Shown here one piece after another: positions 1 to 16,575 of a DNA stretch of 64,000 nt. The notes under the pieces were generated by a model. It did not search any database, was not told the DNA's origin, and worked only from the letters and a program-made list of their open reading frames with translations. The translations under genes and the position numbers were made by a program. Numbering within the stretch: the stretch's first letter is position 1; every line of letters begins with the position of its first letter. This DNA comes from Cohaesibacter intestini (GTDB lineage Bacteria; Pseudomonadota; Alphaproteobacteria; Rhizobiales; Cohaesibacteraceae): the NCBI RefSeq assembly GCF_003324485.1, contig NZ_QODK01000002.1:620001-684000 (forward strand). Direction: 5' to 3'.

Positions 1-1227
1 CATCACGCAGAAGCTCGGGATCGAGGCCTTGGCGATGAAGCCGATATCATGCCCCGTCATGCCTTGCAGCACGAACAGATTGAAGCCAATTGGCGGGGTA
101 ATCTGGGCCATTTCAACCACGATCATCAAATAGACCCCGAACCACAACATATCAAAACCCGCCGCCCGCACCATTGGCTCGATAACCGCCATCGTCAGAA
201 CGATGGAGGAAATGCCATCAAGGAAGCAGCCAAGCAGAATGTAAAACAGCGTCAGAATGATGATCAGCGACAGAGGCGAAGGCTGCCATGCGGCGATGCC
301 CTCAGCCAGCGCTTTCGGGATGCCCGTAAAGCCCATGGCAAGGGAAAGAAAGCCCGACCCCATCAGAATGAACATGATCATCGTCGTCGTCCGCACCGAG
401 CCCAACACAGACTCGCGGAACGTCTTTATCGACAAGGTCCGCTGAAACGCCGCCAGAATGAGCGATCCCAACACCCCAAGGGCTGCGGCTTCGGTTGCGG
501 TAGCGATCCCCCCATAGATCGACCCAATCACAGACAGGATCAGCGCGATCACCGGCAACAGGCCGAGGAAAGCATCCATTTTTTCAGACCAGCTGGTCGA
601 CGGATCTTGCTTAACCAGCGAGGGATTGCGCAGACCCCAAAAGGCAATATAGCCCATGAACATCAAGGCCAGAGCCACGCCCGGGATCATTGCCGCCATG
701 AACAGACGCGCAATGCTCTCATTGACCGTCACCCCGTAAATGATCATCGAGATGGAAGGCGGGATCAACAATCCAAGCGTCCCGGCCCCGGCAAGCGAGC
801 CGACGATCTGGGTTTCCGGATAGCCACGCTTGCGTAGCTCTGGAATGGCCATTTTGCCCACGGTGGCAACGGTTGCCGCCGACGAGCCGGAAATGGCCGC
901 AAAAATCGCCGAGGCCCCGACATTCACATGCAGCAATCCGCCGGGCAGACGCCGCATGAAGGGGGCAATGCCGCGAAACAGGGTTTCCGACAGGTTGGTG
1001 CGGAACAGAATTTCCCCCATCCAGATGAACAAAGGCAAGGCTGTCAATGTCCAGGAGGACTGCTCCCCCCAGATGGTCAGCGCCATTGCGTCGCCAATCG
1101 GAGCCGAGGTGAACAGAAACATGCCCAAAATGGCGGTGATCAGCAGCGACGCCCCCACCCAGACAGACGTGCCCAGCAGGAAAAACAGGGCAAACAGGAA
1201 TATGGCAATGGAAAGCGCTTCGGTCAT
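1..1227 (-). CDS. dctM: TRAP transporter large permease (DctM), 3' end cut by window edge
   Basis: The frame is open from an ATG at 1227 to base 1 (409 codons), so only about 15-25 C-terminal residues should be missing compared with the usual 425-430. The protein is almost entirely hydrophobic, with glycine/proline-rich loops typical of the DctM/SiaM 12-helix membrane subunit, for example GGLLHVNVGASAIFAAISGS near residue 95 and LIPPSISMIIYG near residue 155. It forms the Na+-coupled channel of a TRAP system. The start overlaps the dctQ stop as ATGA (1224-1227), so translational coupling is likely. It is the last visible gene of the dadA-like/dctP/dctQ/dctM operon. Substrate is unknown; the neighbouring D-amino-acid dehydrogenase-like gene and racemase suggest an amino acid or derivative (inference). 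Confidence 0.95.
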   Translation of the reverse strand, partial: MTEALSIAIFLFALFFLLGTSVWVGASLLITAILGMFLFTSAPIGDAMALTIWGEQSSWTLTALPLFIWMGEILFRTNLSETLFRGIAPFMRRLPGGLLHVNVGASAIFAAISGSSAATVATVGKMAIPELRKRGYPETQIVGSLAGAGTLGLLIPPSISMIIYGVTVNESIARLFMAAMIPGVALALMFMGYIAFWGLRNPSLVKQDPSTSWSEKMDAFLGLLPVIALILSVIGSIYGGIATATEAAALGVLGSLILAAFQRTLSIKTFRESVLGSVRTTTMIMFILMGSGFLSLAMGFTGIPKALAEGIAAWQPSPLSLIIILTLFYILLGCFLDGISSIVLTMAVIEPMVRAAGFDMLWFGVYLMIVVEMAQITPPIGFNLFVLQGMTGHDIGFIAKASIPSFCVM

Positions 1228-1751
1228 ACCTCTTGCGGCCCTCCATCAGCCACCCGTTCCGGGTCGATTTCGCGATAGTTGAACAGGGCGATCATCAAGA
1301 CATGAATGGTGGAAATAGCGAACAGGATCGAGCCGATCACCACAGGGGTCTGCGGGATCCACAACAGGATCGCATCCGCGCCCTCGCTACGCTCCCCATA
1401 TTCATACGAATCCAGCATCAGACGAACCATGTAATAGGCGAGAAAACAGGCGACCGAGGCGATGACGAAATGCGCCCACAATTCAAAGCCACGCCGAGCG
1501 GCCCCGAAAAAGCGCTGGGTCATCAGGGTGACGCGAATATGCCCCTCACTTCGGAAGGTATAGGCCAGCGCCATAAAGGTGCTTGTCGCCATGACATAGC
1601 CCGCAACGTCGGACGCACCGCCCGCAAACAGGCCGATCTGTCTGGCAAGGATGCTATAAAGCACCAGACAGCACAGCAGAACGAGCAACAACCCGGCGCC
1701 CCATGCACCGATAAGATAGATCCGGTCCAAAAACCGGCTGATCTGAGCCAT
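1224..1751 (-). CDS. dctQ: TRAP transporter small permease (DctQ)
   Basis: The protein has 175 residues and four predicted membrane helices (about 14-36, 48-68, 86-110, 130-152), the size and topology of the DctQ family. DctQ pairs with DctM in the inner membrane. The N-terminal segment with LLLVLLCCLVLYSILARQIG is the usual first helix ending in a conserved Arg. It lies 91 bases downstream of dctP, separated by a stem-loop, and overlaps dctM by four bases. The start at 1751 has a GGA element 8 bases upstream. Family assignment is secure; substrate is not readable from this subunit. Confidence 0.93.
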   Translation of the reverse strand: MAQISRFLDRIYLIGAWGAGLLLVLLCCLVLYSILARQIGLFAGGASDVAGYVMATSTFMALAYTFRSEGHIRVTLMTQRFFGAARRGFELWAHFVIASVACFLAYYMVRLMLDSYEYGERSEGADAILLWIPQTPVVIGSILFAISTIHVLMIALFNYREIDPERVADGGPQEV

Positions 1752-1810
1752 GATGGAAATCCTGAATTAAGACTGATTTCAGCAAGCCAAGGGCGACTGC
1801 AAAGCAAAAC

Positions 1811-1832
1811 GGGAGAGCCCATAGGCCCTCCC
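1811..1832 (-). terminator. Stem-loop between dctP and dctQ (attenuator-like)
   Basis: A 9-bp stem (1811-1819 with 1824-1832, one G-U pair in the minus-strand RNA) and a 4-base loop lie 10 bases after the dctP stop. They are followed on the minus strand by GTTTTGC. The short T-run suggests partial termination or 3'-end protection of the dctP message rather than a full stop, since dctQM follow in the same orientation. Confidence 0.6.
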
Positions 1833-1842
1833 ATCCATTGTC

Positions 1843-2814
1843 TTACATGCCTTCATAGGCTTTCAGGATGGCCGCACCGGACTCCCCGGCCCGCTCAAGC
1901 CACTGGGCTTTCAACTCACTGCCCGCTTTTTCAAACGCCTTCATCATGTCTGGGCTTGCAGGGGCAACCATCATGCCTTTTTCCTTGAACTGTTCGATAT
2001 ACCAGCTGTCCAGCTCTTCGGATTTGGTCCAGCATTTGGCCTCGGCAGTGGCCGCCGCTTCCTTGACCGCGGCTTTGACGCTGTCATCAAGGCGCGCCCA
2101 TGCCTTGCCATTGACGATGACCATGTTGCGCGGCAACCATGCTTTCACATCATAATAATATTTCACATGCTCCCAGAGCTTGCGGTCATAGCCGGTGGCG
2201 CCGGACGAAATCATCGACTGCGCAACACCGGTCGCAAAGGCCTGACTCAGTTCAGCCGCTTCAATTTTGGTTGGAGCCATGCCCAGACTCTCGGCAATTT
2301 TCGAGGTGGTGGCATTATAGGCACGGAACTTCAGGCCTTCCACATCCGCAGGAACCTTGGCTTCCTTGATGGAATAAAAACCCTGTGGTGGCCATGGGCA
2401 AGAATAGAGAAACTCGATGCGTGCTTTGGCGAGCGTCTCGACCAGAGCCGGTTTGGAGGCCTCGTAGAGCTTTTTGGAATCAGCAAAAGAGGTCGCAAGG
2501 AATGGGATCGAGTCAATCTCATAGAGCGGATTCTCATTGCCCAAAGCCGAAATCAGGCGTTCACCGATTGGCACGAGGCCTTTGCGAACCGCGCCGAAAA
2601 TCTCGGAGCCACCAAACAGGGCACCTGATGGATGGGTGGTAATTTCCAGCGCGCCACCGGTTTTCTCGGCCACATCTTTGGCAAACTCAGCAGCAGCCTC
2701 GGAATGGAAATTGGTGGCCGAATAAGCCAGTGCCATATCCCATTTTTCCGCTTGGGCAGACGCCCCCATCAGTGCAGTGCAAGCAACAGAAGCAAGAAGA
2801 AGTTTGACTTTCAT
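1843..2814 (-). CDS. dctP: TRAP transporter solute-binding protein (DctP family)
   Basis: The protein has 323 residues with a clear signal peptide (MKVKLLLASVACTALMGASA, cleavage near AQA) and a DctP fold. The family's ligand-carboxylate arginine region is seen as GLKFRAYNATTSKIAESLGM near residues 157-176. It is the periplasmic receptor that delivers substrate to the DctQM pair encoded downstream. An AGGGGAA ribosome site lies 7 bases before the ATG at 2814. It lies 43 bases after the dadA-like gene in the same orientation, so they are probably co-transcribed. Ligand is not determinable; a carboxylate such as an amino or keto acid is expected for the family. Confidence 0.95.
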   Translation of the reverse strand: MKVKLLLASVACTALMGASAQAEKWDMALAYSATNFHSEAAAEFAKDVAEKTGGALEITTHPSGALFGGSEIFGAVRKGLVPIGERLISALGNENPLYEIDSIPFLATSFADSKKLYEASKPALVETLAKARIEFLYSCPWPPQGFYSIKEAKVPADVEGLKFRAYNATTSKIAESLGMAPTKIEAAELSQAFATGVAQSMISSGATGYDRKLWEHVKYYYDVKAWLPRNMVIVNGKAWARLDDSVKAAVKEAAATAEAKCWTKSEELDSWYIEQFKEKGMMVAPASPDMMKAFEKAGSELKAQWLERAGESGAAILKAYEGM

Positions 2815-2857
2815 GAAAATGTTCCCCTGATTATTGGAAGGTTATGATTGATGGTGA

Positions 2858-4138
2858 TTATTGTTTTCTTGGACGAATGAACCGCTCTGGACGAAACGGT
2901 TCGGATTGCAGTTTATGCTCCCGACCTTCTATCTGGTCGGCTAGGATTCTGGCCGTTCCCGGACCGGTATTGACGCCAATATGCTGGTGGCCAAAGGCAA
3001 AATACAAGTCCTTTTGACCGGGAGCTGCCCCGATCACCGGTCGGCAATCGGGCATAGTGGGTCGGCATCCCATCCATGGCTCGTCAAGCTGCCGTTCGCC
3101 GAGCGTCACCGCCTGTCTGGCCGAGGCCTCGGCCAGCTCCAGTTGCGCAAAGTTCTTCTCGGCATCAATGTCTGCCAACTCAACGCCGGTGCAAAGCCGC
3201 AAGCCGCCGCGCATCGGTGCCAACACATAGCCCGCAGAGACATCATAGATCGGACGGCTCAGCTCTGTCACCTCGTCGGTCCCCTCACCACGCCCGGAAC
3301 CGGAATAATGCATGTGATAGCCGCGCTCATAGCCCATCGGCACTTGGAAACCAAAGCGCGCCAAAAAGTCCTTCGACCATGGCCCCAGCGCGATCACCAG
3401 CTTGTCCGCGGAAAAGTGTTCTCCATCGCTCGCTTTGACGTGCCAACGATCGGCACTCTGTTCGATGGCTACCAGATTGGCCTTTGCAAGGGTCCCGCCG
3501 CGCGTCACAAACAATTTGGCATAGGCCTGCACCAGAGCCGAAGGGTCGCGGATCGAGCGGGTATCGCGGATCCAGACCCCTTGCTCGAAAATCGGCTTCA
3601 GACCCGGCTCCATCGCCGCAATATCACCCTTCTCCAGCATCTGCATATCAAGACCAAAGCGCTGATAGGTTTGGCGCAGAAAGGCCGCATTGTTGAAATC
3701 CTTCATGCTGCGATAGAGAAACAACCAGCCATCATCTTGCACCAAATGCTGAGCCTCAGCCTCTTTGATCAGACGGGCATGCTCACTTCGGGACAATTCA
3801 ATCAGATCAAACAGAGCCTTGGCTGTCCGCTCAAACGCCGAGGGTCGGGCATGCAACAAAAAGCGGATCGCCCAGCCGGTATTCTTGAGCATGAAGCCAA
3901 GCTTGTAGCGCATCGACGCAGATTGATTGAGCATCAATTTGGGCAATTGCTGCCACAGCATGGGGTTGTTGATCGGAACCAGTGAGGTTCGGGTGATGAT
4001 GCCCGCATTGCCGTGCGAAGTCTCTAGCCCCGGCTCGCGCCGATCCAGCAGCGTGACCTTCATGCCCCGGCGCTGCAACTCCAACGCGATGGATGTGCCG
4101 ACCATGCCGGCGCCACAAACAAGAACAGATTCTGTCAT
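2858..4138 (-). CDS. dadA: FAD-dependent D-amino-acid dehydrogenase-like oxidoreductase (DAO family)
   Basis: The protein has 426 residues. The N-terminal Rossmann dinucleotide motif is VLVCGAGMVGTSIALELQRR (about residues 5-24), followed by HGNAGIITRTS. The C-terminal FAD-binding segment is GHQHIGVNTGPGTARILADQ. Length and motifs match DadA and related glycine/D-amino-acid oxidases, which oxidatively deaminate amino or N-alkyl amino acids in the cytoplasm or at the inner membrane. The ATG at 4138 is chosen because AAGGAG lies 9 bases upstream; an in-frame upstream extension to 4276 has no ribosome site and no family similarity. It heads the operon with dctPQM, so the transporter likely feeds it. 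Exact substrate (D-amino acid, hydroxyproline epimer, sarcosine-like) is open, and the dadA symbol is by family only. Confidence 0.88.
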   Translation of the reverse strand: MTESVLVCGAGMVGTSIALELQRRGMKVTLLDRREPGLETSHGNAGIITRTSLVPINNPMLWQQLPKLMLNQSASMRYKLGFMLKNTGWAIRFLLHARPSAFERTAKALFDLIELSRSEHARLIKEAEAQHLVQDDGWLFLYRSMKDFNNAAFLRQTYQRFGLDMQMLEKGDIAAMEPGLKPIFEQGVWIRDTRSIRDPSALVQAYAKLFVTRGGTLAKANLVAIEQSADRWHVKASDGEHFSADKLVIALGPWSKDFLARFGFQVPMGYERGYHMHYSGSGRGEGTDEVTELSRPIYDVSAGYVLAPMRGGLRLCTGVELADIDAEKNFAQLELAEASARQAVTLGERQLDEPWMGCRPTMPDCRPVIGAAPGQKDLYFAFGHQHIGVNTGPGTARILADQIEGREHKLQSEPFRPERFIRPRKQ

Positions 4139-4447
4139 CACCGATGCTCCTTGACCTGAACAGTCGCAGGTTTGTGACAAAAACCCAAGATGCAATTTGT
4201 GGCGATTTGCCCAAAATTCCGTCAAAACTCCGCACTTACTATCGCTTTGCGGCAATTTGCCGGAACGACCTGCCAAGAGCCTAGGTAGTTCTCGCTAGAG
4301 ATCTCCTATCAATTCCGAAGCCGATGTCTGAGCGAATTTAGACTGGGGTCCGATCCGCCAGACAGGCTGGCTGTTGCATTTTCGTTGAAACAATCAAGCC
4401 AACATCATTATGTTATTGGTTGACGCGACAGAAAGCAGACCAAAGAA
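4139..4447. other. Divergent intergenic region between dadA-like gene and racemase gene
   Basis: These 309 bases carry both promoters for the divergent units. No convincing ORF is present; an in-frame extension of the minus gene reaches 4276 but has no ribosome site. The notable element is a 13-base imperfect palindrome at 4250-4262 with a related half at 4201-4212, described separately. Confidence 0.6.
4250..4262. promoter_or_regulatory. Candidate operator CGGCAATTTGCCG
   Basis: Inverted half-sites GGCAA/TTGCC around a single central base, in the dadA-like/racemase intergenic region. The identical 13-mer occurs again at 49192-49204 between dapA and slt, beside an inverted copy. A degenerate copy (GGCGATTTGCCC) lies at 4201-4212. 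Repeated palindromes at two amino-acid-related promoters suggest a shared regulator (inference); the binding protein is unknown. Confidence 0.4.
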
Positions 4448-5173
4448 ATGACCGACCCGACCCACACCACTGCGCCCTTTCTGGGAATCCTCATGCTCGA
4501 TACCCGGTTCGAGCGCCCCTTGGGGGATGCAGGCAATCCGGCATCCTATCCCTTCCCGGCCCGACTGGCGGTTGTTAAGGGCGCAGGAAGCCTTGAAATC
4601 GTCAGAGACGGCAAACCATCCGACGCCCATATTGAGGCATTCATTCAGACAGCCCGTCAGTTGGAGGCCGAAGGTGCAGCCGCCCTCACCTCAACCTGTG
4701 GCTTCCTGATCACCATACAGGACGAACTTGCCCGCGCCGTTGCGATCCCCGTGCTTCTATCGGCTCTATGCTCCTATGCACGGATCAAGCGACATCACCC
4801 TTCAGGGCGCATCGGCATTCTGACCGCCTCCAAAACTGCCCTCGGCGACACCGCCCTGTTGGCCGCAGGCATTAACAATGATGACGTTGTGATTGAGGGG
4901 CTGGAACAATGCCAAGCATTCGCCAATGCCATTCTGCGTCCCAAAAGCCAACAGACGGGGCCCATCGACCGGCCTGCGATCGAACAAGAACTGATCGCCA
5001 AGGCACGCGGCATGATGGCCAAGCATCATGATCTTCAGGCCTTTTTGCTCGAATGCGGCAACCTGCCGCCCTACCAGCAGGCATTGCATCAGGCCACGGG
5101 CCTTCCGGTCTACTCGTTGCTGGACGCCGTCACCTGTCCAAGCTTTGCAGCTGGCTTGTTACGCCCAAAATAG
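4448..5173 (+). CDS. Aspartate/glutamate/hydantoin racemase-family protein
   Basis: The protein has 241 residues. The two catalytic cysteines of the Asp/Glu racemase superfamily are visible as LTSTCGFLITIQ (about residue 83) and LLECGNLPPY (about residue 202). It starts with GILMLDTRFERPLGD rather than the GxxxT of glutamate racemase MurI, so a catabolic amino-acid or hydantoin racemase is more likely than a cell-wall one. It is divergent from the D-amino-acid dehydrogenase-like/TRAP operon, which fits interconversion of enantiomers before oxidation. No clear ribosome site is visible in front of the ATG at 4448 beyond a weak AAAGAA. Substrate uncertain. Confidence 0.82.
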   Translation: MTDPTHTTAPFLGILMLDTRFERPLGDAGNPASYPFPARLAVVKGAGSLEIVRDGKPSDAHIEAFIQTARQLEAEGAAALTSTCGFLITIQDELARAVAIPVLLSALCSYARIKRHHPSGRIGILTASKTALGDTALLAAGINNDDVVIEGLEQCQAFANAILRPKSQQTGPIDRPAIEQELIAKARGMMAKHHDLQAFLLECGNLPPYQQALHQATGLPVYSLLDAVTCPSFAAGLLRPK

Positions 5174-5407: not shown

Positions 5408-6469
5408 ATGACCTGCTTAAGAGAAAGAAGTCTTCTTGTTTCTACCACACTTATGATGGTCTTGCTTGCAACGGGGACAACGCAAGCAGAAACACAAGAA
5501 ACCAGAACCACGATCAACATCGCCAGCACTTTTCCGCGCGACATTCCAATTGCAGGAACCGTCAATACAGGCCTGTCAAAAAAGATCGATCGCCTGTCAG
5601 GCGGCACCTTTTCTGTTGCCTTTCACGAACCCAACGAGCTGGCGCCCGCCAAGGAAGTGATCTCTGCGGTGTCTGAGGGCAAGATTGATGGTGCCTGGTC
5701 CGGTGCAGGCTGGTTCTCCTCCAAGGACAGCGCCTTCAACTTTTTCTCCAGTGTCCCTTTTGGTCCCAGCATCAGCGAATATCTCGCCTGGCTTTATGAG
5801 GGGGGCGGTCTCGAACTCTCCCGTCAGATGTTTCACAAATACAACGTGCACAATGTGCCTTGTGGCATGATTTCCCCTGAAGCAGCAGGATGGTTTCCCA
5901 AGGAAATCCGCAATGTTGAGGACCTGTCAGGCCTTCGTATGCGGATTTTCGGGCTTGGCGCAATGGTCATGCAAAAGCTGGGTGTCGAAACTGTGCAACT
6001 GACATCCACCGACCTGATGACCGCGTTTGAATCGGGAGAAGTCGACGCTGCCGAATATTCTGCCCCGGCAATCGACCAACCACTCGGTTTTTCCAAATAT
6101 GCCAAATTTTACTATTTTCCCGGCTGGCAGCAGCAGGCCACCCTGTTCATGCTGTTCATCAACAAGACCAGATGGGATGCCCTGCCAGATCAGCATAAGG
6201 CGATGATCGAAATCACCTGCGGTGATGTCATGCGCGGCATGATCGCCAAGAGTGAAGCGGTCCAATGGCGGGCAATGAACCAGTTGCGTATGGATGGTGT
6301 CATCTTCAAACGCTGGGAGCCGGAATTGCTTGTTGCCTTTGAAGATGCCTGGCTGGAAGTGGCCGCAGAGCAATCTGCCAACACTCCGAATTTTAAACGG
6401 GTCTATGACTCCTACATCGAATTTCGCAAAAATTATGCAATGTGGCGCCGGTTCAGCTTCCTGCAATAG
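5408..6469 (+). CDS. Orphan TRAP-type (DctP/TakP-like) periplasmic solute-binding protein
   Basis: The protein has 353 residues with a signal peptide (MMVLLATGTTQAE around residues 16-29) and a DctP-fold body. Segments such as GWFPKEIRNVEDLSGLRMRI and GLGAMVMQKLGVETVQL resemble TakP-like alpha-keto-acid/mannitol-type receptors. No DctQ or DctM gene is adjacent. Instead a membrane GGDEF-EAL gene begins 55 bases downstream in the same orientation. This suggests that the protein acts as a periplasmic sensor subunit for c-di-GMP signalling rather than, or as well as, a transport receptor (inference). A GGGGGC element precedes the ATG. The preceding 234 bases (5174-5407) are AT-rich and carry no gene. 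Confidence 0.9.
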   Translation: MTCLRERSLLVSTTLMMVLLATGTTQAETQETRTTINIASTFPRDIPIAGTVNTGLSKKIDRLSGGTFSVAFHEPNELAPAKEVISAVSEGKIDGAWSGAGWFSSKDSAFNFFSSVPFGPSISEYLAWLYEGGGLELSRQMFHKYNVHNVPCGMISPEAAGWFPKEIRNVEDLSGLRMRIFGLGAMVMQKLGVETVQLTSTDLMTAFESGEVDAAEYSAPAIDQPLGFSKYAKFYYFPGWQQQATLFMLFINKTRWDALPDQHKAMIEITCGDVMRGMIAKSEAVQWRAMNQLRMDGVIFKRWEPELLVAFEDAWLEVAAEQSANTPNFKRVYDSYIEFRKNYAMWRRFSFLQ

Positions 6470-6524
6470 GCCCAAATGGCGCGCCCACATCGAATTACGA
6501 CACGCTTTCATAAGGAGCGTCAGT

Positions 6525-9011
6525 TTGAAAATGAAAATTCATTCCATTGGTTCACGGCTCTTTCTGGCATTCGCTCTTGCGCTCGCCGTGGTGTTTTGTG
6601 GCGGTGTTTTCACATTCATGGAATTGAGAAAAACTGAACAGATCGCGCAGCTGGTAACCACCTCCATCGTACCAAAACGTCAGATATGGAACGATATCAA
6701 GGCGCTCAGCAATCAGCATTTTGTCCTGTCCAAACAACAACTGCAAACCAATGATTTCCGGGAATTGGCGCGGATCAAGACTGCGATCAAGGAGACCGAA
6801 CTCAGCCTGTTTGTGGAACAAGTTTCCCTGAGTAGCTTGGGCCTGACCAACAGGGAGAGCGACGATTACGATGCGTTTCAAAATCACATGCAAACCTATC
6901 TGATGGAAGCGGCGACCGCGCTCAACAAGTTGAATTCCGGGCAGTATAAAATCGCCTATTCCCGGTTTGACAAAACCGCAAAGACTTCGCTGAAACGCGC
7001 CCTCGCCAAGATCGAGTCGTCGATTGAGACCATCAACCGCGAACATGCGCAGGCCAACATGGCCCATCGCGATTCCATCAACCAGTCCAAGCGCATGATG
7101 GTGATCAGTTTCATCCTCCTGCTCCTCACATTGATTGCCTTGCTGCGCTGGATTACCATCCGGATCAGCAATCCGCTGTTGAATCTGAGTTCGACATTGC
7201 GACGCCTCACGGAAGGCAACTATTTGACCCGCATTCCCGACTTTCCGGACAGAAAGGACGAAATCGGCTTCATCACCAATGCAGCAAAAGCCTATCAGGA
7301 GGTTGCCCAGCGTCGGCTTGAATTGTCAAAAGTTGTCGAACGCGAAGCCAAGCGCCTCGATGCGGTGCTTTCCAACATGCCTGTCGGTCTGTGCATTTTT
7401 GATCAGAATTTCAGGATCATTCTGAAAAACCAGTCATTCAACGAGCTCTATGAGCTTGATCAGGCGGACGACCAATCAAACCAGAAATACTGCGAACTGA
7501 TCGGAGCAAAGATTCGGAAAAATCTCGATGGCGCCAGCGAGGAGATGTCCTGTCATGATCTCATCACCAAGGTGCGGTCCAACCAGTCGTTTGCCCACAC
7601 CTGGCGCCTCGACAATGGTCGAGCGATTTCTGTGACCATCCAGAAAACCTCTGAAGGCTGGGTCTCGATCCACAAGGACATCACGGAGCGCCTGAATGCA
7701 GAGGCGAAGGTTCTGCATATGGCCCATCACGATTCCCTAACCGGCCTTTTCAATCGCAACCTATTTGCAGATACGCTGGAGAACGTCATCAGACGGGCCA
7801 AAGACGGTGAAGCCGCGTCCGTTATGGTGCTGGATCTCGACCGCTTCAAATCCATCAATGACACCCTCGGCCACAAGGCAGGCGATGAACTGCTGCAACA
7901 GGTCGCCATACGTTTGCAGAAAGTTTGCTCGCCGGGCGATCTGGTCTTCCGACTGGGCGGCGATGAGTTTGCCATCATCCACCACTCAAATGACATTCAT
8001 GCAAGCTCCAGGACGCTGGCAGAAGCCATTCTGGCAATTCTCGAAGAGAACTTCATTCTGGAAGGACAAACTGTCTCTGCCGCAGCCAGCATCGGCATAG
8101 CCATTGCGCCTGACCATTGTGAAACCACCGACGGTATCTACAAGGCGGCCGACATCGCGCTCTATCATGCCAAAAATATGGGCCGAAAGTGCTTTGCGAT
8201 GTTCACCACCAAACTGGAAGAAGACATCCGGGCGAAAGAGTCGCTGGAAAAATACATGCTGGAAGCCTTCAACAAGTCTGAATTCCAGATGCAGTATCAA
8301 CCGATCATCGACACAGATTCCGGCGAAGTGCGCTCCTTTGAAGCCTTGATGCGCTGGAACCCGATGGATGACACCGCGGTTTCCCCTGCCCTGTTCATTC
8401 CGTTGGCAGAAGAAAATGGCTTCATCAACACCCTTGGAGAATGGGCATTGGAAGAAGCGCTCAAAACAGCAGCCAACTGGCCAGACGACATCCGGGTAGC
8501 GGTCAATTTGTCGCCGATTCAGCTGAATGACGAGACGCTTTATGACACCGTCAGCAACCTGCTGAACAAGTATCAGGTGGAGCCGCAGCGTCTGGAGCTT
8601 GAAATCACTGAAACGGTTCTACTCGACGACAACGCAGCCAACATCAAGCTGCTCAAACGTCTGCATGATCTGGGAGTCCGTATTGCCCTTGATGACTTTG
8701 GTACCGGCTACTCCTCGCTGAGCTATTTGCGGATGTTCCCGTTCGACAAGATCAAGGTCGACCGTTCCTTTATCAAAGCCATGGGGAATGATGACAACTC
8801 TCTGGCCATTGTCCGGGCGATTGTCGGTCTGAGCCGTGAATTGGGCATTGACTGCACCGCAGAAGGGGTTGAGGACAAAAAGCGATTGAAAGCAATCGAG
8901 AGCGAAGGCTTCAGCGAAGTGCAGGGATTTGTCTTCAGCAAGGCCATGCACGCAGATGCCTTGATGGACTTTCTGGAAATGACCGAATATCGAGGCCGCA
9001 TAGCCAGTTAA
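6525..9011 (+). CDS. Membrane-bound GGDEF-EAL protein (4-helix periplasmic domain, HAMP, PAS)
   Basis: Numbering from the ATG at 6531: helix 1 at 9-30, a helical periplasmic domain about 32-187, helix 2 at 189-207, HAMP to about 260, PAS about 277-388, GGDEF about 395-560 and EAL about 570-825. The synthase motif RLGGDEF (474-480) is intact. So are the phosphodiesterase motifs FEALMRW (603-609), DDFGTGYSSLSYL and KIKVDRSFI, so both activities look possible. The inhibitory I-site position reads SPGD (467-470) instead of RxxD. AAGGAG at 6512-6517 is 7 bases from an in-frame TTG at 6525 but 13 from the ATG at 6531, so TTG is favoured. A weak hairpin (ACGCT/AGCGT, 6502-6520) overlaps this site. 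Probably co-transcribed with the upstream binding protein. Confidence 0.95.
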   Translation: MKMKIHSIGSRLFLAFALALAVVFCGGVFTFMELRKTEQIAQLVTTSIVPKRQIWNDIKALSNQHFVLSKQQLQTNDFRELARIKTAIKETELSLFVEQVSLSSLGLTNRESDDYDAFQNHMQTYLMEAATALNKLNSGQYKIAYSRFDKTAKTSLKRALAKIESSIETINREHAQANMAHRDSINQSKRMMVISFILLLLTLIALLRWITIRISNPLLNLSSTLRRLTEGNYLTRIPDFPDRKDEIGFITNAAKAYQEVAQRRLELSKVVEREAKRLDAVLSNMPVGLCIFDQNFRIILKNQSFNELYELDQADDQSNQKYCELIGAKIRKNLDGASEEMSCHDLITKVRSNQSFAHTWRLDNGRAISVTIQKTSEGWVSIHKDITERLNAEAKVLHMAHHDSLTGLFNRNLFADTLENVIRRAKDGEAASVMVLDLDRFKSINDTLGHKAGDELLQQVAIRLQKVCSPGDLVFRLGGDEFAIIHHSNDIHASSRTLAEAILAILEENFILEGQTVSAAASIGIAIAPDHCETTDGIYKAADIALYHAKNMGRKCFAMFTTKLEEDIRAKESLEKYMLEAFNKSEFQMQYQPIIDTDSGEVRSFEALMRWNPMDDTAVSPALFIPLAEENGFINTLGEWALEEALKTAANWPDDIRVAVNLSPIQLNDETLYDTVSNLLNKYQVEPQRLELEITETVLLDDNAANIKLLKRLHDLGVRIALDDFGTGYSSLSYLRMFPFDKIKVDRSFIKAMGNDDNSLAIVRAIVGLSRELGIDCTAEGVEDKKRLKAIESEGFSEVQGFVFSKAMHADALMDFLEMTEYRGRIAS

Positions 9012-9410: not shown

Positions 9411-11303
9411 TCAGGCCGCAATCGCTTCGCTGACGCAATTGCTCGCCGGTTGGTAGGACGCGACGGTAAAACGAATGCTGGTCTTGGCGCCCGGCATGGT
9501 CACAACCGAAATTTCCCCGCCATGATCCTCGACAATCTTTTTGCAGACGGCGAGCCCAATGCCTGTGCCTTGATATTCATCATCGTTATGAAGACGCGCA
9601 AACATCTCGAACACCTTGTTGTAATATCGCGGTTCAATGCCGATCCCATGATCGCTCACCAGAATTTCGACCATTCCATTGTGAAGCTCTGATGCAGAGA
9701 TCCGGATCTTCGCCTTGTTGCTACCGGCAAACTTGACCGCATTGTCGATCAGATTGGAAAAGACTGTTTCGATCATATGTGTGTCCGCATAGATCTCGAG
9801 TTGCTCATCGATATCAAACGACACATGCGCGGATTTCAGTTCGTTTTCTTTCATGTCCAGCAGACTCTGCACCATCACATTGAGGCGGATTGGAAAGTGA
9901 CTGAAATTCGGATTGCCATACTTGGTGTAGTTCTGGAAGGAATCGATCATGTTCCGCATCCGACTCGACGACCTTTGGAGTCGCGTCATGACATCCCTCG
10001 TTTCCGTCTCATTCATATCGGCGTCCAGATCGTCTCGTAAGAGTTCAACAAACCCTTCGATCCGTTTGAGCGGCGCTCTGAGATCATGGGCGACAATCGA
10101 AGAAAACCGCATCAGATCCTCATTCTTTGCCTGCAGCTTCCGACAAGCCTTCTCGAAGCCTTCACGCAACAGCTCTTCTGTCTCCGCGGAGGCTTGAGCC
10201 CGGTCCTTTTCGACCAGCAAGCGATGCGACATGCGACGGGCCGTGATCAATGCACGATGTTGTTCATTGCCCAACGACCGCGTGACCAGATAAAGAAGCA
10301 GTGAAATCAGCATACCGATCACGCCAAACAGAAGCGGCAGGAAGCGTTCAGCTCTCGTCACGAAGGCCTGTGTGGCAGCAAAGGTCAGTGTCCACTGTTT
10401 GCCACCCATCTCGACCTGTCTGACGATGGTATCCAATCCTGACATTTCCACCTTGTCGGCGGTTGCCTGATCGCTGCCATAAATCCGATGGGACAGGCCA
10501 TCAGAGCTGCGATCAAAAACCTCGAAATCAATCCCCTCTGCGGTGACCACTCCGAGTCCATCGAAGAAATCCAGCCCATCAATCGGGCTGAAGACAAAAC
10601 CCTGAAGCTTCTGACGCCGCGCAGCCAATCCGTCTGCTGCGGTGCCCCTCTGATAAACTGGCACAAACATAGTGAAACGGTTCCGACGGCCTGCCATGCT
10701 GCTGGTCTCGGCATTGCCAATGGCAAGCTTGCCACTGTCGCGCGCCCGAGCCATTGCCTCGCGGTAAGCCAGATTTGACCAGAGGTCAGACCCGACAGCA
10801 ACCGCATCACCATCGGTGAAGGATGTAGCAAATCGTGTTGTGGTGAATTTTTGTGACAGGTTTACGGACTGTCCGGCTTTCTCAGCAAGCTTGTCACCCA
10901 CTTCCCGGTCCACCGATTGGCCCGACGTCTGGCCAGCCAGAGCGCGTCCGGCCTCACTCGAACCAATCAGCCCGGCATAGCCATACCCCTCAACCCCTTT
11001 TTGCAGGTGGCTCGGGCTGAGCCCGTCAACAAATTGCAGCCAAACGTCACCGGTCATCGGCACCTGGCTTCGCAGCAAACCGGCTCCCGCCCAAAGTTTG
11101 GTTTCCTGGGCGTGCATTTTCATTTTGACAGCCAATTCAATATTGGCAGCATGCATCGCAAAGCGACGTTCAACGGCGGTCCAAAGCCACTGATGAAAGA
11201 ACACACACGACGCGATGGTCGTTGCCATGGAGATCGCGAAAACGCCAAGCGCCACGCGACCGCCAGTTATCTTCTTTTGCCTTAGCTGTCTTAAACGATA
11301 CAT
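9411..11303 (-). CDS. CHASE-domain sensor histidine kinase
   Basis: The protein has 630 residues. Membrane helix about 16-38; a periplasmic CHASE-type domain about 45-310 (WLQFVDGLSPSHLQKGVEG and FSPIDGLDFFDGLG are recognisable parts); second helix about 320-342; a short coiled linker; HisKA with the phospho-accepting His in VAHDLRAPLKRIEGF near residue 405. The ATPase domain has N box NLIDNAVKFA, G1 DHGIGI and GTGIGLAVCKKIVEDHGG. The ATG at 11303 is chosen because GAGGTG lies 9 bases upstream; a GTG at 11315 lies inside that site. CHASE domains bind small extracellular molecules. The upstream single-domain receiver, 35 bases away, is the likely partner. The gene ends at a strong terminator. 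Confidence 0.93.
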   Translation of the reverse strand: MYRLRQLRQKKITGGRVALGVFAISMATTIASCVFFHQWLWTAVERRFAMHAANIELAVKMKMHAQETKLWAGAGLLRSQVPMTGDVWLQFVDGLSPSHLQKGVEGYGYAGLIGSSEAGRALAGQTSGQSVDREVGDKLAEKAGQSVNLSQKFTTTRFATSFTDGDAVAVGSDLWSNLAYREAMARARDSGKLAIGNAETSSMAGRRNRFTMFVPVYQRGTAADGLAARRQKLQGFVFSPIDGLDFFDGLGVVTAEGIDFEVFDRSSDGLSHRIYGSDQATADKVEMSGLDTIVRQVEMGGKQWTLTFAATQAFVTRAERFLPLLFGVIGMLISLLLYLVTRSLGNEQHRALITARRMSHRLLVEKDRAQASAETEELLREGFEKACRKLQAKNEDLMRFSSIVAHDLRAPLKRIEGFVELLRDDLDADMNETETRDVMTRLQRSSSRMRNMIDSFQNYTKYGNPNFSHFPIRLNVMVQSLLDMKENELKSAHVSFDIDEQLEIYADTHMIETVFSNLIDNAVKFAGSNKAKIRISASELHNGMVEILVSDHGIGIEPRYYNKVFEMFARLHNDDEYQGTGIGLAVCKKIVEDHGGEISVVTMPGAKTSIRFTVASYQPASNCVSEAIAA

Positions 11304-11338
11304 GGGCCTTGTCACCTCTGGTCATGCGACGCAAGAAA

Positions 11339-11782
11339 TCAGCTCATCAATTGCGTTTTTACTTTCGGCAGATTCTTGATTGCCGCGAAGAATTCCTCTG
11401 AAGTGAATGGTTTGACGATATAACCATCGCTGCCGACGTCAAACGACTCGAAGATATCGGACGGGTCGTCCGAAGCAGAGAACATCAACACAGGCACTTG
11501 ACCATAGTCCGGGTGCGCCCTGATCTTCTGCAAGGCTTCGAAACCGTTGATCTTAGGCATATTGACATCCATCAGGATCAGGAAGGTTCTCTTTTCGATC
11601 CCCAGCTCGATCAACTCGTCAAGCGCTTCGAAAATTCGCTCGGGTTTCCGCTCGGAAACAAACCGGTTGACAATGCCCTCTTTGCGCAGCTTGCGCCGCG
11701 TCAGAAAAATCTCGTCAACATTATCATCCACCATGATTAACGTGGTTTCCGATACCTTTCGTGCTTCTGTTTGAACTGTCAT
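11339..11782 (-). CDS. Single-domain response regulator (receiver only)
   Basis: The protein has 147 residues and consists of one receiver domain. Acidic pair IMVDDNVDE, phospho-acceptor Asp in LILMDVNMPKING, switch Ser in MFSASDD and Lys in YIVKPF are all present, so it should be phosphorylatable. No output domain follows. The start at 11782 has GGAG 6 bases upstream; an in-frame ATG 12 bases earlier has none. It lies 35 bases upstream of the CHASE kinase and is probably its partner, acting by protein-protein contact as in Rcp1- or CheY-like systems (inference). Confidence 0.92.
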   Translation of the reverse strand: MTVQTEARKVSETTLIMVDDNVDEIFLTRRKLRKEGIVNRFVSERKPERIFEALDELIELGIEKRTFLILMDVNMPKINGFEALQKIRAHPDYGQVPVLMFSASDDPSDIFESFDVGSDGYIVKPFTSEEFFAAIKNLPKVKTQLMS

Positions 11783-12089
11783 GCCTAGCTCCATGAAATA
11801 TTTATAGACGCAAACTTTCTTCAGCATCCATAATCAAGGAGAAAAATTTAATTTAGTCTAATAAACAAGCCTTTTGATTTTATATTTTCATTATCCTTAC
11901 TTACTTTAATATTGAATAAAATTGTACAATTTTTGCCATTATAGAATAATAGTATGATTTATAGCCACAATAACGCAATAATAAAAAACAGTGAAATAAG
12001 AATGAGATTCATTACGACGGAAATGCGCATAACAAAATGCAAATCCGACTTGGTCTCAACTTTAATCTTCACAGAATATTACAGATTAT
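11783..12089. other. AT-rich intergenic segment with probable promoter for the receiver-kinase pair
   Basis: These 307 bases are strikingly AT-rich compared with the rest of the window, especially 11840-12070. They separate two same-strand signalling units and contain no gene. The composition fits a promoter region, or a nucleoid-protein-bound or acquired junction; no specific site could be assigned. Confidence 0.5.
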
Positions 12090-13244
12090 CTATCCGGACA
12101 AAGCAATCTTCTGTTCGAACTGAACTATTTCCTGCGTCTCACTCACATCCGGCAGGACATTGTGCGCTGCCTGCAGCAGCGAGAAGGAGAAAGTCGACCC
12201 TTTGCCCTTTACTGACTGACACCAGATCTTGCCCCGATGCCGATCCAGAATCCGTCTGCAGGTCGCCAGTCCCAGGCCGGTTCCGGCATACTCATCTTCG
12301 CTATGCGCCCGATGAAATGGCTTGAAGATGGACACCAGATCCTCCTCATCCAAGCCGATGCCGTTATCCCTTATGTCGATCTGCCAAAAGTCGCCTTTCT
12401 GATGAGCATCAATATGGATCTGCGGTTTGTCTGCCTTGCAATATTTGATCGAATTGCCGATCAGATTTTGCAGCAACTGAACGATCTGTGGCGGGTCCGC
12501 GAGCACGGTTGGCAAAGGTGCATGGGTGATATCCGCCCGACTTTCCTCAATGTCGAAATGCAGATTGTTAAGGGCATCCTGAAGCAGGTCTGCCAGACAT
12601 GCCGATTGCAGAGGCCGGTCCGTATTGGAAGACTTGTTGTAAATCCGCAAGGTATCAATCAGTTCCGAGGCGCGTCGTGCCGACCGTTCGATGCGATCAG
12701 AAAACTCCTGCACCTCATCGTGACACTCTTCCTCTATTGCCTCCTGAATCAACTCATTCATCCCGCGAATGACATTGATCGGAGCTTTCAAATCATGCGC
12801 CAGCACGTTGGCGAAGGTTGCAAGATCGGCTTGATGATCATCGATTTTTCGCAACAACGCGACCCGCTCGACCGTATTGAGAATCACCCGCTGCAGCGCT
12901 GAACCGGTCAGATCGTTTTTCGAAAGATACTCCTGAGCGCCCCCCTTGATGGAGTCCGCTGCGATTTTCTCATTGCCTTGTCCGGTCAACATCACCACTG
13001 GCAGATGACTCTCGTGGACCTGCAACTCTTCCAACAGTTCCAGACCATTCCGTCCGGGCAGACTGAAGTCGAGCAAGATACAGTCGACACTAACAGACTG
13101 GCATTGGGCAATTGCCTCTCTGGCAGAGGCAACTTCAAAATAGCGATAGCGCGTGTCCCCACCCTGCTTCGTCAATAGATGCTTATATAAGTCGCGATCG
13201 TCTTCGCTATCATCGACAATCATCACGTTGAGTCGATTAGTCAT
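12090..13244 (-). CDS. Receiver-histidine kinase hybrid (N-terminal REC, soluble)
   Basis: The protein has 384 residues and no membrane segment. Receiver domain residues 1-120 (MIVDDSEDDRDLY, acceptor Asp in CILLDFSLPGRNG, VMLTGQGN, Lys in YLSKND). It is followed by HisKA with His in LAHDLKAPINVIRGM, then HATPase with N box LLQNLIGNSIKYC, DNGIGL and GTGLGLATCRRILDRHRGK. An N-terminal receiver on a kinase is typical of relay intermediates that accept phosphate from another kinase. GAGGGTGG lies 6 bases before the ATG at 13244. It overlaps the upstream receiver gene by 8 bases, so three genes (kinase, receiver, hybrid) form one tightly coupled operon. Confidence 0.93.
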   Translation of the reverse strand: MTNRLNVMIVDDSEDDRDLYKHLLTKQGGDTRYRYFEVASAREAIAQCQSVSVDCILLDFSLPGRNGLELLEELQVHESHLPVVMLTGQGNEKIAADSIKGGAQEYLSKNDLTGSALQRVILNTVERVALLRKIDDHQADLATFANVLAHDLKAPINVIRGMNELIQEAIEEECHDEVQEFSDRIERSARRASELIDTLRIYNKSSNTDRPLQSACLADLLQDALNNLHFDIEESRADITHAPLPTVLADPPQIVQLLQNLIGNSIKYCKADKPQIHIDAHQKGDFWQIDIRDNGIGLDEEDLVSIFKPFHRAHSEDEYAGTGLGLATCRRILDRHRGKIWCQSVKGKGSTFSFSLLQAAHNVLPDVSETQEIVQFEQKIALSG

Positions 13245-13701
13245 TTTTGTCCACCCTCGGGAGCGCCGAAACCTCCAGCCAGAATTTCTTGATGCTCGCT
13301 ATTGTGTTGACAAAGCCCTCCAATTCGATCGGCTTTGTGACATAGGAGTTTGCTCCCTTCTCGTAACAATCCCTGACATCCAGATAATTGTTCGACGTTG
13401 TCAGCACGACCACCGGAATGGACTTGAGATCTTCGTCAGACTTGATGATTTGCAAAATCTCCCGACCATCCATGCCTGGCATGTTGAGATCCAGCAGGAT
13501 CAGCCCCGGCAGGATCTCCAGATCGTCCTCCTCGCCCACGGCCCCATATTTGAGAAAATCGAGTGCTTCGCGACCGGAAGAACAGCGCAGTATCGGATGT
13601 TTCACGCTGCCTGTCCGCAGGAAGGCCCTTGAAGTTGCTTCAAAATCATCGTCGCTATCCTCGACAATCAGAACGGGCTGTACGGCACTATGCGCAATCA
13701 T
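13237..13701 (-). CDS. Rcp1-like single-domain response regulator
   Basis: The protein has 154 residues. The receiver carries VEDSDDDFEATSRAF, acceptor Asp in LILLDLNMPGMDG, Thr in VVLTTSNN and Lys in YVTKPIELEGF. The sequence around the acidic pocket and the C-terminal helix (FVNTIASIKKFWLE) resembles the phytochrome-partner Rcp1 family. No output domain. The start at 13701 overlaps the kinase stop as ATGA and has GAGAGG upstream. It most likely receives phosphate from the upstream Cache kinase and passes it to the downstream hybrid or another target protein (inference). Confidence 0.93.
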   Translation of the reverse strand: MIAHSAVQPVLIVEDSDDDFEATSRAFLRTGSVKHPILRCSSGREALDFLKYGAVGEEDDLEILPGLILLDLNMPGMDGREILQIIKSDEDLKSIPVVVLTTSNNYLDVRDCYEKGANSYVTKPIELEGFVNTIASIKKFWLEVSALPRVDKND

Positions 13702-16034
13702 GCTGCCTCTCTTTCTGCGCAAGTCTTGGGGTCTGAGGAAGCGGACAAGGTGAAGAAGAATGTTGTACCCTTGCCCAACTCCGACTGAAGCCAAATCGAT
13801 CCGCCATGCTGATGGATAATTTTTTCAACGAAGGTCAAACCAGCACCGGTTCCGTCGCTGAAGTCGTTTGAACTTTCCAATCGCTTGAACAGCTTGAAGA
13901 CGGAATTGTGATAGGTCTCATCAATGCCGACGCCATTGTCACGCACGGAAAATATGCCTGTCTGCGGATCATAGCCGACGTCAACCAGCTTCTGATCCTT
14001 GTCATTATACTTTGCAGCATTGACAATCAGGTTGCGGAAGACCTCGGTAACACGCACCTTGTCACACACCACTGTCGGCAGGTCGGATGAAATGGTCAGC
14101 TTGACATGGTCAGCCTCGAATCCATCCCGTGAAGTCATCTCGATATCAGCAAGAACTGCCGCCAGATCTGTCGGCTCGGTAACGGCATCCTGTTGTCCCA
14201 ATCGTGAAAAATGAAGCAGGTCAGCCACGAGCCTCTCCATCCGTTTGGTCAGAAACTGCAGTCTGTCCAGCCGTTTCTTGCCATCACAGTCCAGCACGTC
14301 ATCGTAATCCTCAAGAAGGAAGCTGGAATGATTGTGAATTGCTCTCAAGGGCTCTCGCAGATCATGAGCCGCAATATGCGCAAAGCTGTCAAGCTCCTGA
14401 TTGGACCTGACCAGGCGAGCAATCAGGTCTTCGCGCTCCTCTTCCTGCCGCTTGCGTTCGGTGATGTCCCGCACCACAACAGTCAGCAGAAATCGCTCGG
14501 TGATATCGACACGCCGCATCGTCAACATGGCCGGAAAGGTTCGGCCACTCGCATGCAAACCGATCACCTCATATTCCGCATGTTCCTTTGAACCAGTCCA
14601 GAAACGATCCTCGCGCAACTCAACAAAACTGATTGGTTCTCCATCTTGGCTGAGGAGGATCTCTTCGGCACGCTTGCCAATCAACGTGTCCCGACTATAG
14701 CCAAATGTCGGCTCAGCGGCCCGGTTGGAGCCAATCACCACTTGTTCATCGTCGAAAGTGAGGATCGCATCCGCAACATTTTCCAGAACCGTAGCAGCTT
14801 TTGCCCGACTTTCATTAAGATCCAGCGCCATCCGCCTGGAAGCACGCGCCAGCGCACCGATTTCATCACGCATATAAACGGGCAGATCAGAGCCGAAATG
14901 CGACGCATCTTCACTTTGAAGCGCCATTGCAATTGCTTGCAATGCCCGCGACATGCGCCGTGCCAGCGGCAGGGTTAGCAACGAGATCAATGCCACCAGA
15001 AAGAATGAGAAAAACAGGAACGACCGCAACGAGGCGATCACGGGAGCAAGCGCTTGTGCACGGCTGGTTGTCTGGGCGACTCCGACAAACACGTCAGGAT
15101 TGCCGGGATTGACATTCAATTTGACAAAGTAACTAAGCGCATCCTCACTTTTGAAGCTGCCTTCGTCGCTTTCATAACCCTTGAAGTGGGCAACAAGCTC
15201 ACTCGGCAAATAGCTTTGGTCTTCATGAAACTCAAACGAACCAAATTTGCTTAACGCGTCAATTTTCAAATAGTCGCCGTGATTGTTAATGGCATAGGCC
15301 ACACGGGATGGCGTGCTGTTCTGGAGACCAAGCTGCATCAGTTTTTCATAATTCACATTGATCACAACCAGCCCGAACATCTGGCCGTCATCATCAAAGA
15401 CCGGCACGATAGTCCGCAACGTCGGCGTCATGAGCGTATCAACCTTGCCATGCTCGCGATTATAGGTGACGTCAGAGAAATAGGTCTGTCCGGCTTGAAG
15501 ACGAAGGCTTTCCTGAAAGTAGCGTTCGCCTTCCTTTTGTTGCAAATTCTGCGGGGTGACGACATCGATACCATCATTGGTCTGATCCACACGCACCAGC
15601 TCACGCCCGCCGTCAGCGACGCCGATATAGTGCAATTGGGTATAGTGGCTTCTCGCTCTCAACAATGAGATGAAAATGGTTTCAAGGCGGCCACGCCAAT
15701 GGGCGGTGGTGGATCCGTCCTTGGGGTCGACATCATTGTTACGAGTTGAAGCAATCAGCCCGGCAATGGGAGGCAGCTGGGAGATGATAAAAGCTTCATT
15801 TTGCAACTCTTTATAGATACCAGCAAACTTCTGCGCGACAATTCTGGTTTCTTCACGCAGGTTTCGGATTTCCGAATCCAGCACGATCTTGCGAGTGTAA
15901 TTGTAGTAAAAAACACAAAGTAAAACGGCAAAAACCATCGCACTGGCACCAACAAAGATCGTCGTCTTTGTCGCCAGTGAAGGAGATGAAGAAAATTGTC
16001 GCCTCACCCCCGATATGAGCGAAATCGAATGCAT
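13698..16034 (-). CDS. Cache-HAMP-PAS sensor histidine kinase (phytochrome-type kinase core)
   Basis: The protein has 778 residues. Helix about 23-46; a large periplasmic double-Cache-like domain about 50-330 (HYIGVADGGRELVRVDQ, FGLVVINVNYEKLMQLGLQ); second helix about 333-355; HAMP; PAS (VLENVADAILTFDDEQVV to about 520). HisKA has the His in AHIAAHDLREPLRAIHNHS, and HATPase carries FRNLIVNAAKYNDKD, DNGVGIDE and GTGAGLTFVEKIIHQHGGS. The kinase core resembles bacteriophytochrome kinases, but no chromophore domain is present. The ATG at 16034 is preferred to a GTG at 16046; neither has a strong ribosome site. First gene of the kinase-receiver-hybrid operon. Confidence 0.93.
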   Translation of the reverse strand: MHSISLISGVRRQFSSSPSLATKTTIFVGASAMVFAVLLCVFYYNYTRKIVLDSEIRNLREETRIVAQKFAGIYKELQNEAFIISQLPPIAGLIASTRNNDVDPKDGSTTAHWRGRLETIFISLLRARSHYTQLHYIGVADGGRELVRVDQTNDGIDVVTPQNLQQKEGERYFQESLRLQAGQTYFSDVTYNREHGKVDTLMTPTLRTIVPVFDDDGQMFGLVVINVNYEKLMQLGLQNSTPSRVAYAINNHGDYLKIDALSKFGSFEFHEDQSYLPSELVAHFKGYESDEGSFKSEDALSYFVKLNVNPGNPDVFVGVAQTTSRAQALAPVIASLRSFLFFSFFLVALISLLTLPLARRMSRALQAIAMALQSEDASHFGSDLPVYMRDEIGALARASRRMALDLNESRAKAATVLENVADAILTFDDEQVVIGSNRAAEPTFGYSRDTLIGKRAEEILLSQDGEPISFVELREDRFWTGSKEHAEYEVIGLHASGRTFPAMLTMRRVDITERFLLTVVVRDITERKRQEEEREDLIARLVRSNQELDSFAHIAAHDLREPLRAIHNHSSFLLEDYDDVLDCDGKKRLDRLQFLTKRMERLVADLLHFSRLGQQDAVTEPTDLAAVLADIEMTSRDGFEADHVKLTISSDLPTVVCDKVRVTEVFRNLIVNAAKYNDKDQKLVDVGYDPQTGIFSVRDNGVGIDETYHNSVFKLFKRLESSNDFSDGTGAGLTFVEKIIHQHGGSIWLQSELGKGTTFFFTLSASSDPKTCAEREAA

Positions 16035-16575
16035 TATGAGCCCCACTTAAAACCGGCATGCCCGATGAGTCAGGCGCCGTTACGCAAGTGCCTTCACGGG
16101 GCGAACCAAAACCCTCCAGCACCAACGTTATTATAGTATAACAACTTGCCGGGTTAATTTTGCGTGTAACAATCCTGCTTTGTCCTGCAACCTTTTCTTA
16201 TCAATGCAGTATCGCCGTGCGAACCGCAAAGATTTCAATGAAGGCAAGCATAAAAACGCGATATAATTCAATTAGATACACGAATGAGAAATTATTGCGT
16301 CAACCAAGAAAGACAAAATGCAACCAGCAATATGCCCTGTCTTTCGATGTTTATTTTCAGGGGAATCAGGCAAATCCCTTAGCTCATGAACCAGTTTTTC
16401 TGCCAACAACATGATTTCTTGGCAAGGGCCCACCGGTCCGCCCCCGCAGAATGGACGTGTCGATTTCGGCTCCAAGCATTTCTGATTGCTTCGCAGCGTC
16501 ATCGATCGCCAAGAGAGCCTGACTGAATGCACTGCCAGTAACGTGCGGGGCCGGTTGACCGCGTTGCAAGTGGAC
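16035..16575. other. Intergenic region upstream of the Cache-kinase operon; possible coding remnant
   Basis: These 541 bases have no clear gene. The AT-rich part (about 16120-16340) probably holds the kinase-operon promoter. On the minus strand, 16384-16569 encodes a protein-like stretch (HVTGSAFSQALLAIDDAAKQ) without a start, stop context or recognised family, directly downstream of the GntR stop. It may be a gene remnant. Confidence 0.4.

Follow-up and report, generated by a model that had tools for sequence, protein, structure and literature searches.

The receptor and enzyme genes

We analysed a 64,000-nucleotide stretch of the Cohaesibacter intestini genome (assembly GCF_003324485.1, contig NZ_QODK01000002.1, positions 620,001–684,000; hereafter the window), in which a gene for a DctP-family, TakP-like solute-binding protein (the receptor) is followed on the same strand by a gene for a membrane GGDEF–EAL protein (the enzyme; Table 1). 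A first-pass annotation, made from the sequence alone, had described the receptor as a signal-peptide-bearing protein of the tripartite ATP-independent periplasmic (TRAP) transporter type that lacks DctQM genes of its own, and the enzyme, 55 bases further on, as a cyclic diguanylate (c-di-GMP) protein with a helical periplasmic domain, HAMP, PAS and intact GGDEF and EAL motifs. Both descriptions hold, except that HAMP scores just below its cut-off.

The receptor has 353 amino acids (a.a.) and matches PF03480 (DctP) with an E-value of 5.2e-31; this is the only family scored at E <= 0.001, and there is no PotD-like polyamine-binding match. The above-cut-off match and the family fold place the protein among DctP-type receptors, and it departs from that type in not being encoded with the dctQM of the same importer: no DctQ or DctM gene adjoins it on its strand, and the closest DctM gene, 4.2 kb off and on the opposite strand, is accompanied by a DctP of its own. 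The solved chains nearest to it by sequence are 4yzz, 4yic, 7ug8 and 2hzk. In the pocket Arg179 and Glu216 are retained, and Glu158 replaces the Gln of the four aligned solved receptors. The fold and the shared pocket residues suggest that the ligand may be a carboxylate; the genes flanking the pair, and those flanking the closest transport-linked receptors, give no clue to the ligand.

The start of the enzyme is probably the TTG, which we favour because of the AAGGAG (found by eye) in the gap between the two genes; most analyses used the alternative ATG. No terminator-like site was found within 6470–6524. Four Pfam families match the enzyme above their cut-offs: 4HB_MCP_1, PAS_7, GGDEF and EAL. 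The first (PF12729; 35.8 bits versus a cut-off of 27) assigns the periplasmic part to a known sensor-domain family, and this part is predicted to fold as one four-helix bundle with a predicted local distance difference test (pLDDT) score of 90.0; the hydropathy profile has two hydrophobic stretches, at about residues 3–33 and 185–214. The GGDEF and EAL columns that we take to be catalytic are invariant or almost so across 15 aligned proteins. The I-site (RxxD) is absent from the enzyme, with SPGD at its place (by eye). Among the 25 NCBIfam families listed (of 36), no equivalog passed its cut-off.

Table 1. Features of the receptor–enzyme pair in the window
Feature	Position	Strand	Remark
DctP-family (PF03480) TakP-like solute-binding protein without dctQM	5408..6469	+	
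Sec-type signal peptide, residues 1–27	5408..5488	+	judged by eye
C-terminal tail, W346–Q353 region	6447..6466	+	WxxF[SN]xL in paired, WxxGYL in most unpaired relatives
55-base gap between receptor stop and enzyme start	6470..6524	+	AAGGAG at 6512–6517
Membrane GGDEF–EAL protein	6525..9011	+	TTG start; ATG 6531 alternative
Enzyme periplasmic part, about residues 32–187 (ATG 6531 numbering)	6624..7091	+	predicted to form one four-helix bundle, with a hydrophobic segment on either side
HAMP	7149..7280	+	sub-threshold, 22.9 bits versus cut-off 25
PAS_7	7368..7703	+	Pfam
GGDEF domain	7722..8189	+	motif intact (LGGDEF), without I-site
EAL domain	8262..8942	+	motif intact (FEALMRW)

Distribution of the pair and origin of the receptor

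The adjacency of a DctP gene and a GGDEF–EAL gene, which the first-pass annotation proposed to look for in other genomes, recurs well beyond the window, and the paired receptors fall in one clade. We scanned 84,980 species genomes, which gave 465 relatives, and took the best 80 as named loci: 16 of these 80 have the pair, 55 have a DctQ- or DctM-like gene and nine have neither in the examined stretch (one of the nine, L161, is a Pleomorphomonas contig end). Gene order, strand and domain order are identical in all 16 paired loci, and the distance from the receptor stop to the aligned enzyme start is 24–184 bases in 15 of them; at L098 the two reading frames overlap by 4 bases. Paired loci were found in metagenome-assembled genomes (MAGs) of Bradyrhizobiaceae (with a receptor 61% identical to that of the window), Pseudorhodoplanes, Hyphomicrobiaceae and Rhodobacteraceae, in Mangrovicoccus ximenensis, Rhodobacter sp. 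TJ_12 and Azospirillum sp. SYSU D00513, and in nine members of the Pleomorphomonas group; the flanks of the pair differ among genomes. The adjacency of receptor and enzyme is a conserved unit and not a chance arrangement.

Pleomorphomonas receptors also rank top in an order-wide receptor search (397 genomes). Among 28 new receptor loci from this search, ten have the pair, 17 have DctM and one has a DctQ-like gene only; eight of the ten Pleomorphomonas receptors are identical to those of named loci over the last 300 residues. A separate search of the order with the sensor part of the enzyme alone matched 14 other genomes, 11 of which are Pleomorphomonas with the receptor adjoining in each (one is split at a contig end; L075, L096). 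The other three belong to one other genus and have no receptor beside the enzyme (L093, L094 and L095). Upstream of this receptor-less relative lies a Complex1_49kDa gene in L093 and L094.

In a tree of 71 receptors (made without 15 Thalassospira near-copies, L161 and L098), 15 paired receptors and the window receptor lie on one side of a branch with support 100/99.7, and the nearest outsiders (L104 and L107) both adjoin DctM. The window receptor and ten Pleomorphomonas receptors group with support 100/99.8 in a 57-row tree (made without L007; eight loci gave no usable receptor match), and the clade has support 100/99 in a tree of 19 rows that contains all 17 paired receptors, L098 included. 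Since the paired clade is nested among receptors that are mostly beside dctM, it probably stems from one recruitment of a transport receptor, after which the pairing was kept.

The clade also has residues of its own. We compared the 17 paired receptors (an earlier set of 27 rows held the same Pleomorphomonas genomes twice) with 86 unpaired close relatives, which mostly, not all, adjoin dctM in the examined stretch; 24 outer receptors were counted separately or omitted. R179, E216 and W240 are kept in 17/17 paired receptors, and eight columns differ between the two groups. The sharpest is F349, found in 16/17 paired and 0/86 unpaired receptors, and G350 is found in 78/86 unpaired receptors versus 1/17 paired. 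The C-terminal WxxF[SN]xL motif is present in 16 of the 17, the exception being Azospirillum L106, the deepest branch of the clade. This altered tail may mark a changed docking or dimer surface. The Gln-to-Glu exchange at residue 158 was considered as a mark of paired receptors and ruled out: Glu is present in 85/86 unpaired close relatives, and therefore marks a wider subfamily, not the pair.

Relation to known systems and competing explanations

Among the close structural matches of the modelled periplasmic domain is LytS in its solved complex with the sugar-binding protein XylFII, and TorT–TorS was also matched. In both systems a periplasmic binding protein acts on a four-helix sensor domain, as may be the case here, but those sensors are histidine kinases whose binding proteins come from other families, whereas the window enzyme has a GGDEF–EAL output. 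In LytS, the contact with XylFII is on helices H3 and H4 (PMC9769921).

The pair is best read as working like NspS–MbaA (Vibrio cholerae, Sinorhizobium meliloti) with another binding-protein family, and not as itself a member of that system. The two arrangements share a binding-protein gene, without importer genes of its own, just 5′ of a gene for a membrane GGDEF–EAL protein with HAMP (sub-threshold here) and with both catalytic motifs present (PMC8967002, PMC9993111). They differ in the binding protein, which in the case of NspS is PotD-like and binds polyamines (PMC9993111) whereas the window receptor belongs to PF03480, and in spacing, with a 3-bp overlap between the S. meliloti genes (PMC9993111) and the 55-base gap in the window. 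In V. cholerae, MbaA is shifted towards cyclase activity by ligand-bound NspS and acts as a phosphodiesterase when free (PMC8967002). The window receptor differs from TakP and its kin among the TRAP keto-acid receptors (2hzl, 4yic, 7ug8) in having no dctQM and in carrying Glu158.

We consider it probable, by analogy with NspS–MbaA, that the gene pair specifies a sensor of two parts, reaching from periplasm to cytoplasm, in which the TakP-like receptor docks on the enzyme and sets c-di-GMP. The exported receptor would bind a small-molecule ligand that is probably a carboxylate or keto acid, together with a metal ion; its closed form would dock on the four-helix periplasmic domain; and docking would shift the enzyme, by way of HAMP and PAS, between synthesis and breakdown of c-di-GMP, both motifs being intact. 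Gene order and the receptor tree indicate, for the receptor, an ancestor in a TRAP importer that lost its link to dctQM and stayed with the enzyme. With less assurance, we lean towards a broader statement: that a clade of TRAP receptors gave up transport entirely, in a single event, to serve only as co-receptors of a 4HB-HAMP-PAS-GGDEF-EAL enzyme, and that in several alphaproteobacterial orders c-di-GMP would thus be set by a keto-acid-like nutrient through a TRAP-type receptor.

Members of 13 binding-protein families are reported to act on receptors that include diguanylate cyclases and phosphodiesterases (PMC9602780), and DctP may or may not be among these families. In the literature that we searched, no paper describes a DctP-family receptor with an action on a GGDEF or EAL protein, which is weak evidence of absence as subscription papers were mostly not covered. 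The principle is thus known, and the receptor family and clade appear new within the searchable literature. TRAP receptors are generally treated as parts of transporters; a receptor clade beside a c-di-GMP enzyme, not dctQM, would extend the NspS–MbaA principle to another binding-protein family and would help to show how organic acids bear on the choice of biofilm or motility in Alphaproteobacteria. It would also caution that not every dctP gene should be annotated as an importer gene.

Several results weigh against the two-part sensor. The modelled domain also matches chemoreceptor domains to which small ligands bind directly (MCP2201, Vc1313 and PcaY_PP). A search of the family, 20 genomes with C. 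intestini itself, found the pair in none of the other 19. In a sample of the class, the receptor profile matched 41 of 385 genomes at 1e-100, and 29 loci besides that of the window gave no pairs and 21 with DctM; in a sample of the phylum it matched 14 of 378 genomes, and the ten new loci gave no pairs and ten with DctM. The pair is therefore scattered and rare. A tree of 49 rows built from the cytosolic part (background rows of <381 residues or with stops were removed) does not place the paired enzymes in one clade, and the window enzyme, on a long branch, joins an unpaired enzyme with support 82/87. Distances in the receptor and enzyme trees correlate (r 0.72, 0/2000 permutations), but with only one Pleomorphomonas row kept the correlation is not significant (r 0.43, 217/2000 permutations). 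In view of the enzyme tree and this lower correlation, we limit the claim to conserved pairing and a single origin of the receptor, and do not regard co-evolution as proven. The conservation in relatives that the first-pass annotation asked for thus stands outside the family (in Pleomorphomonas and other Alphaproteobacteria) and fails inside it; its proposal of a TRAP-type receptor in an NspS-like role keeps the conserved pairing and the receptor clade in its favour and loses conservation within the family.

The four-helix bundle could instead sense its ligand directly, as many chemoreceptors do, with the receptor merely concentrating or removing periplasmic ligand. The chemoreceptor domains named above are the closest folds, and a related enzyme exists without the receptor; but 16 of the best 80 loci link the receptor clade with this type of enzyme, and the sensor parts of the paired enzymes are only 20–25% identical to that of the window, versus 41–61% for the receptors. 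A poorly conserved sensor beside a better conserved receptor fits the receptor as the ligand-recognising part, and we think direct sensing unlikely.

We give still less credence to the idea that the receptor serves transport with dctQM encoded elsewhere and that the enzyme only shares its transcript. The genome has many DctM genes (33 matches, some of them split pieces or weak), and a complete DctPQM set, including its own DctP, lies at 1–2814 on the minus strand, 2.6 kb upstream of the receptor. A second receptor without DctM, at C1:669022 (L207:5897–7000), has no signalling gene recognised by eye in the surrounding 13 kb, so orphan receptors need not be sensors. On the other hand, 27 of the 29 DctP matches in the genome already have a DctM within about 2.5 kb (paired by eye; for C6:68170 it is on the opposite strand), the window receptor and C1:669022 being the two that do not. 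Of the DctM matches without a DctP, two lie beside or within what look by eye like TAXI-type systems (C1:412677 and C1:1155699) and two are weak (E-values of 9.1e-8 and 3.9e-6). As the first-pass annotation required, no spare dctQM for the window receptor was seen in its genome through the DctP and DctM matches (DctQ was not searched genome-wide). The paired receptors, moreover, form one clade with clade-specific residues, and the pairing is repeated in genomes with differing flanks.

That one receptor type came to lie beside different GGDEF–EAL genes by chance or repeatedly would accord with the disunited paired enzymes and the very divergent window enzyme, but is highly improbable given the single receptor clade, the uniform gene, strand and domain order in all 16 loci and a single enzyme origin that is not rejected when the 17 paired enzymes are forced together (approximately unbiased test, p-AU 0.276), and repeated pairing, even with swapped partners, would itself point to function. 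By score, the enzymes nearest to that of the window are paired ones (L099, L106 and L097, at 461, 454 and 452 bits), and the unpaired L093 follows at 449 bits, scored with another program.

Other receptors, enzymes and neighbouring genes

The closest other receptors of the family are 42–44% identical to that of the window and are found in six genomes; five of the six have a DctM-like gene within 4 kb, and one (L014) has neither DctM nor the enzyme. A profile of the sensor part (A3) matched 39 of 385 genomes of the class at 1e-18, and no DctP relative was found at the 29 loci examined, where frames near 580 a.a. suggest chemoreceptors. The receptor is likewise beside none of the 29 loci of the best whole-enzyme relatives in 21 near genomes. 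A search of viral contigs gave no relative.

Upstream of the pair, window positions 1–5173 hold the DctPQM set and a DAO-type flavin adenine dinucleotide (FAD) oxidoreductase, both on the minus strand, and an Asp/Glu racemase-like gene on the plus strand; these genes look like a cluster for D-amino or imino acid uptake and breakdown, separate from the pair. Directly past the pair, five consecutive frames on the minus strand (9411–16046) resemble histidine kinases and response regulators (by eye). In a betaproteobacterial MAG (L117:5896–8090), a lone TakP-like receptor lies by an opposite-strand frame that starts like a SAM domain (by eye).
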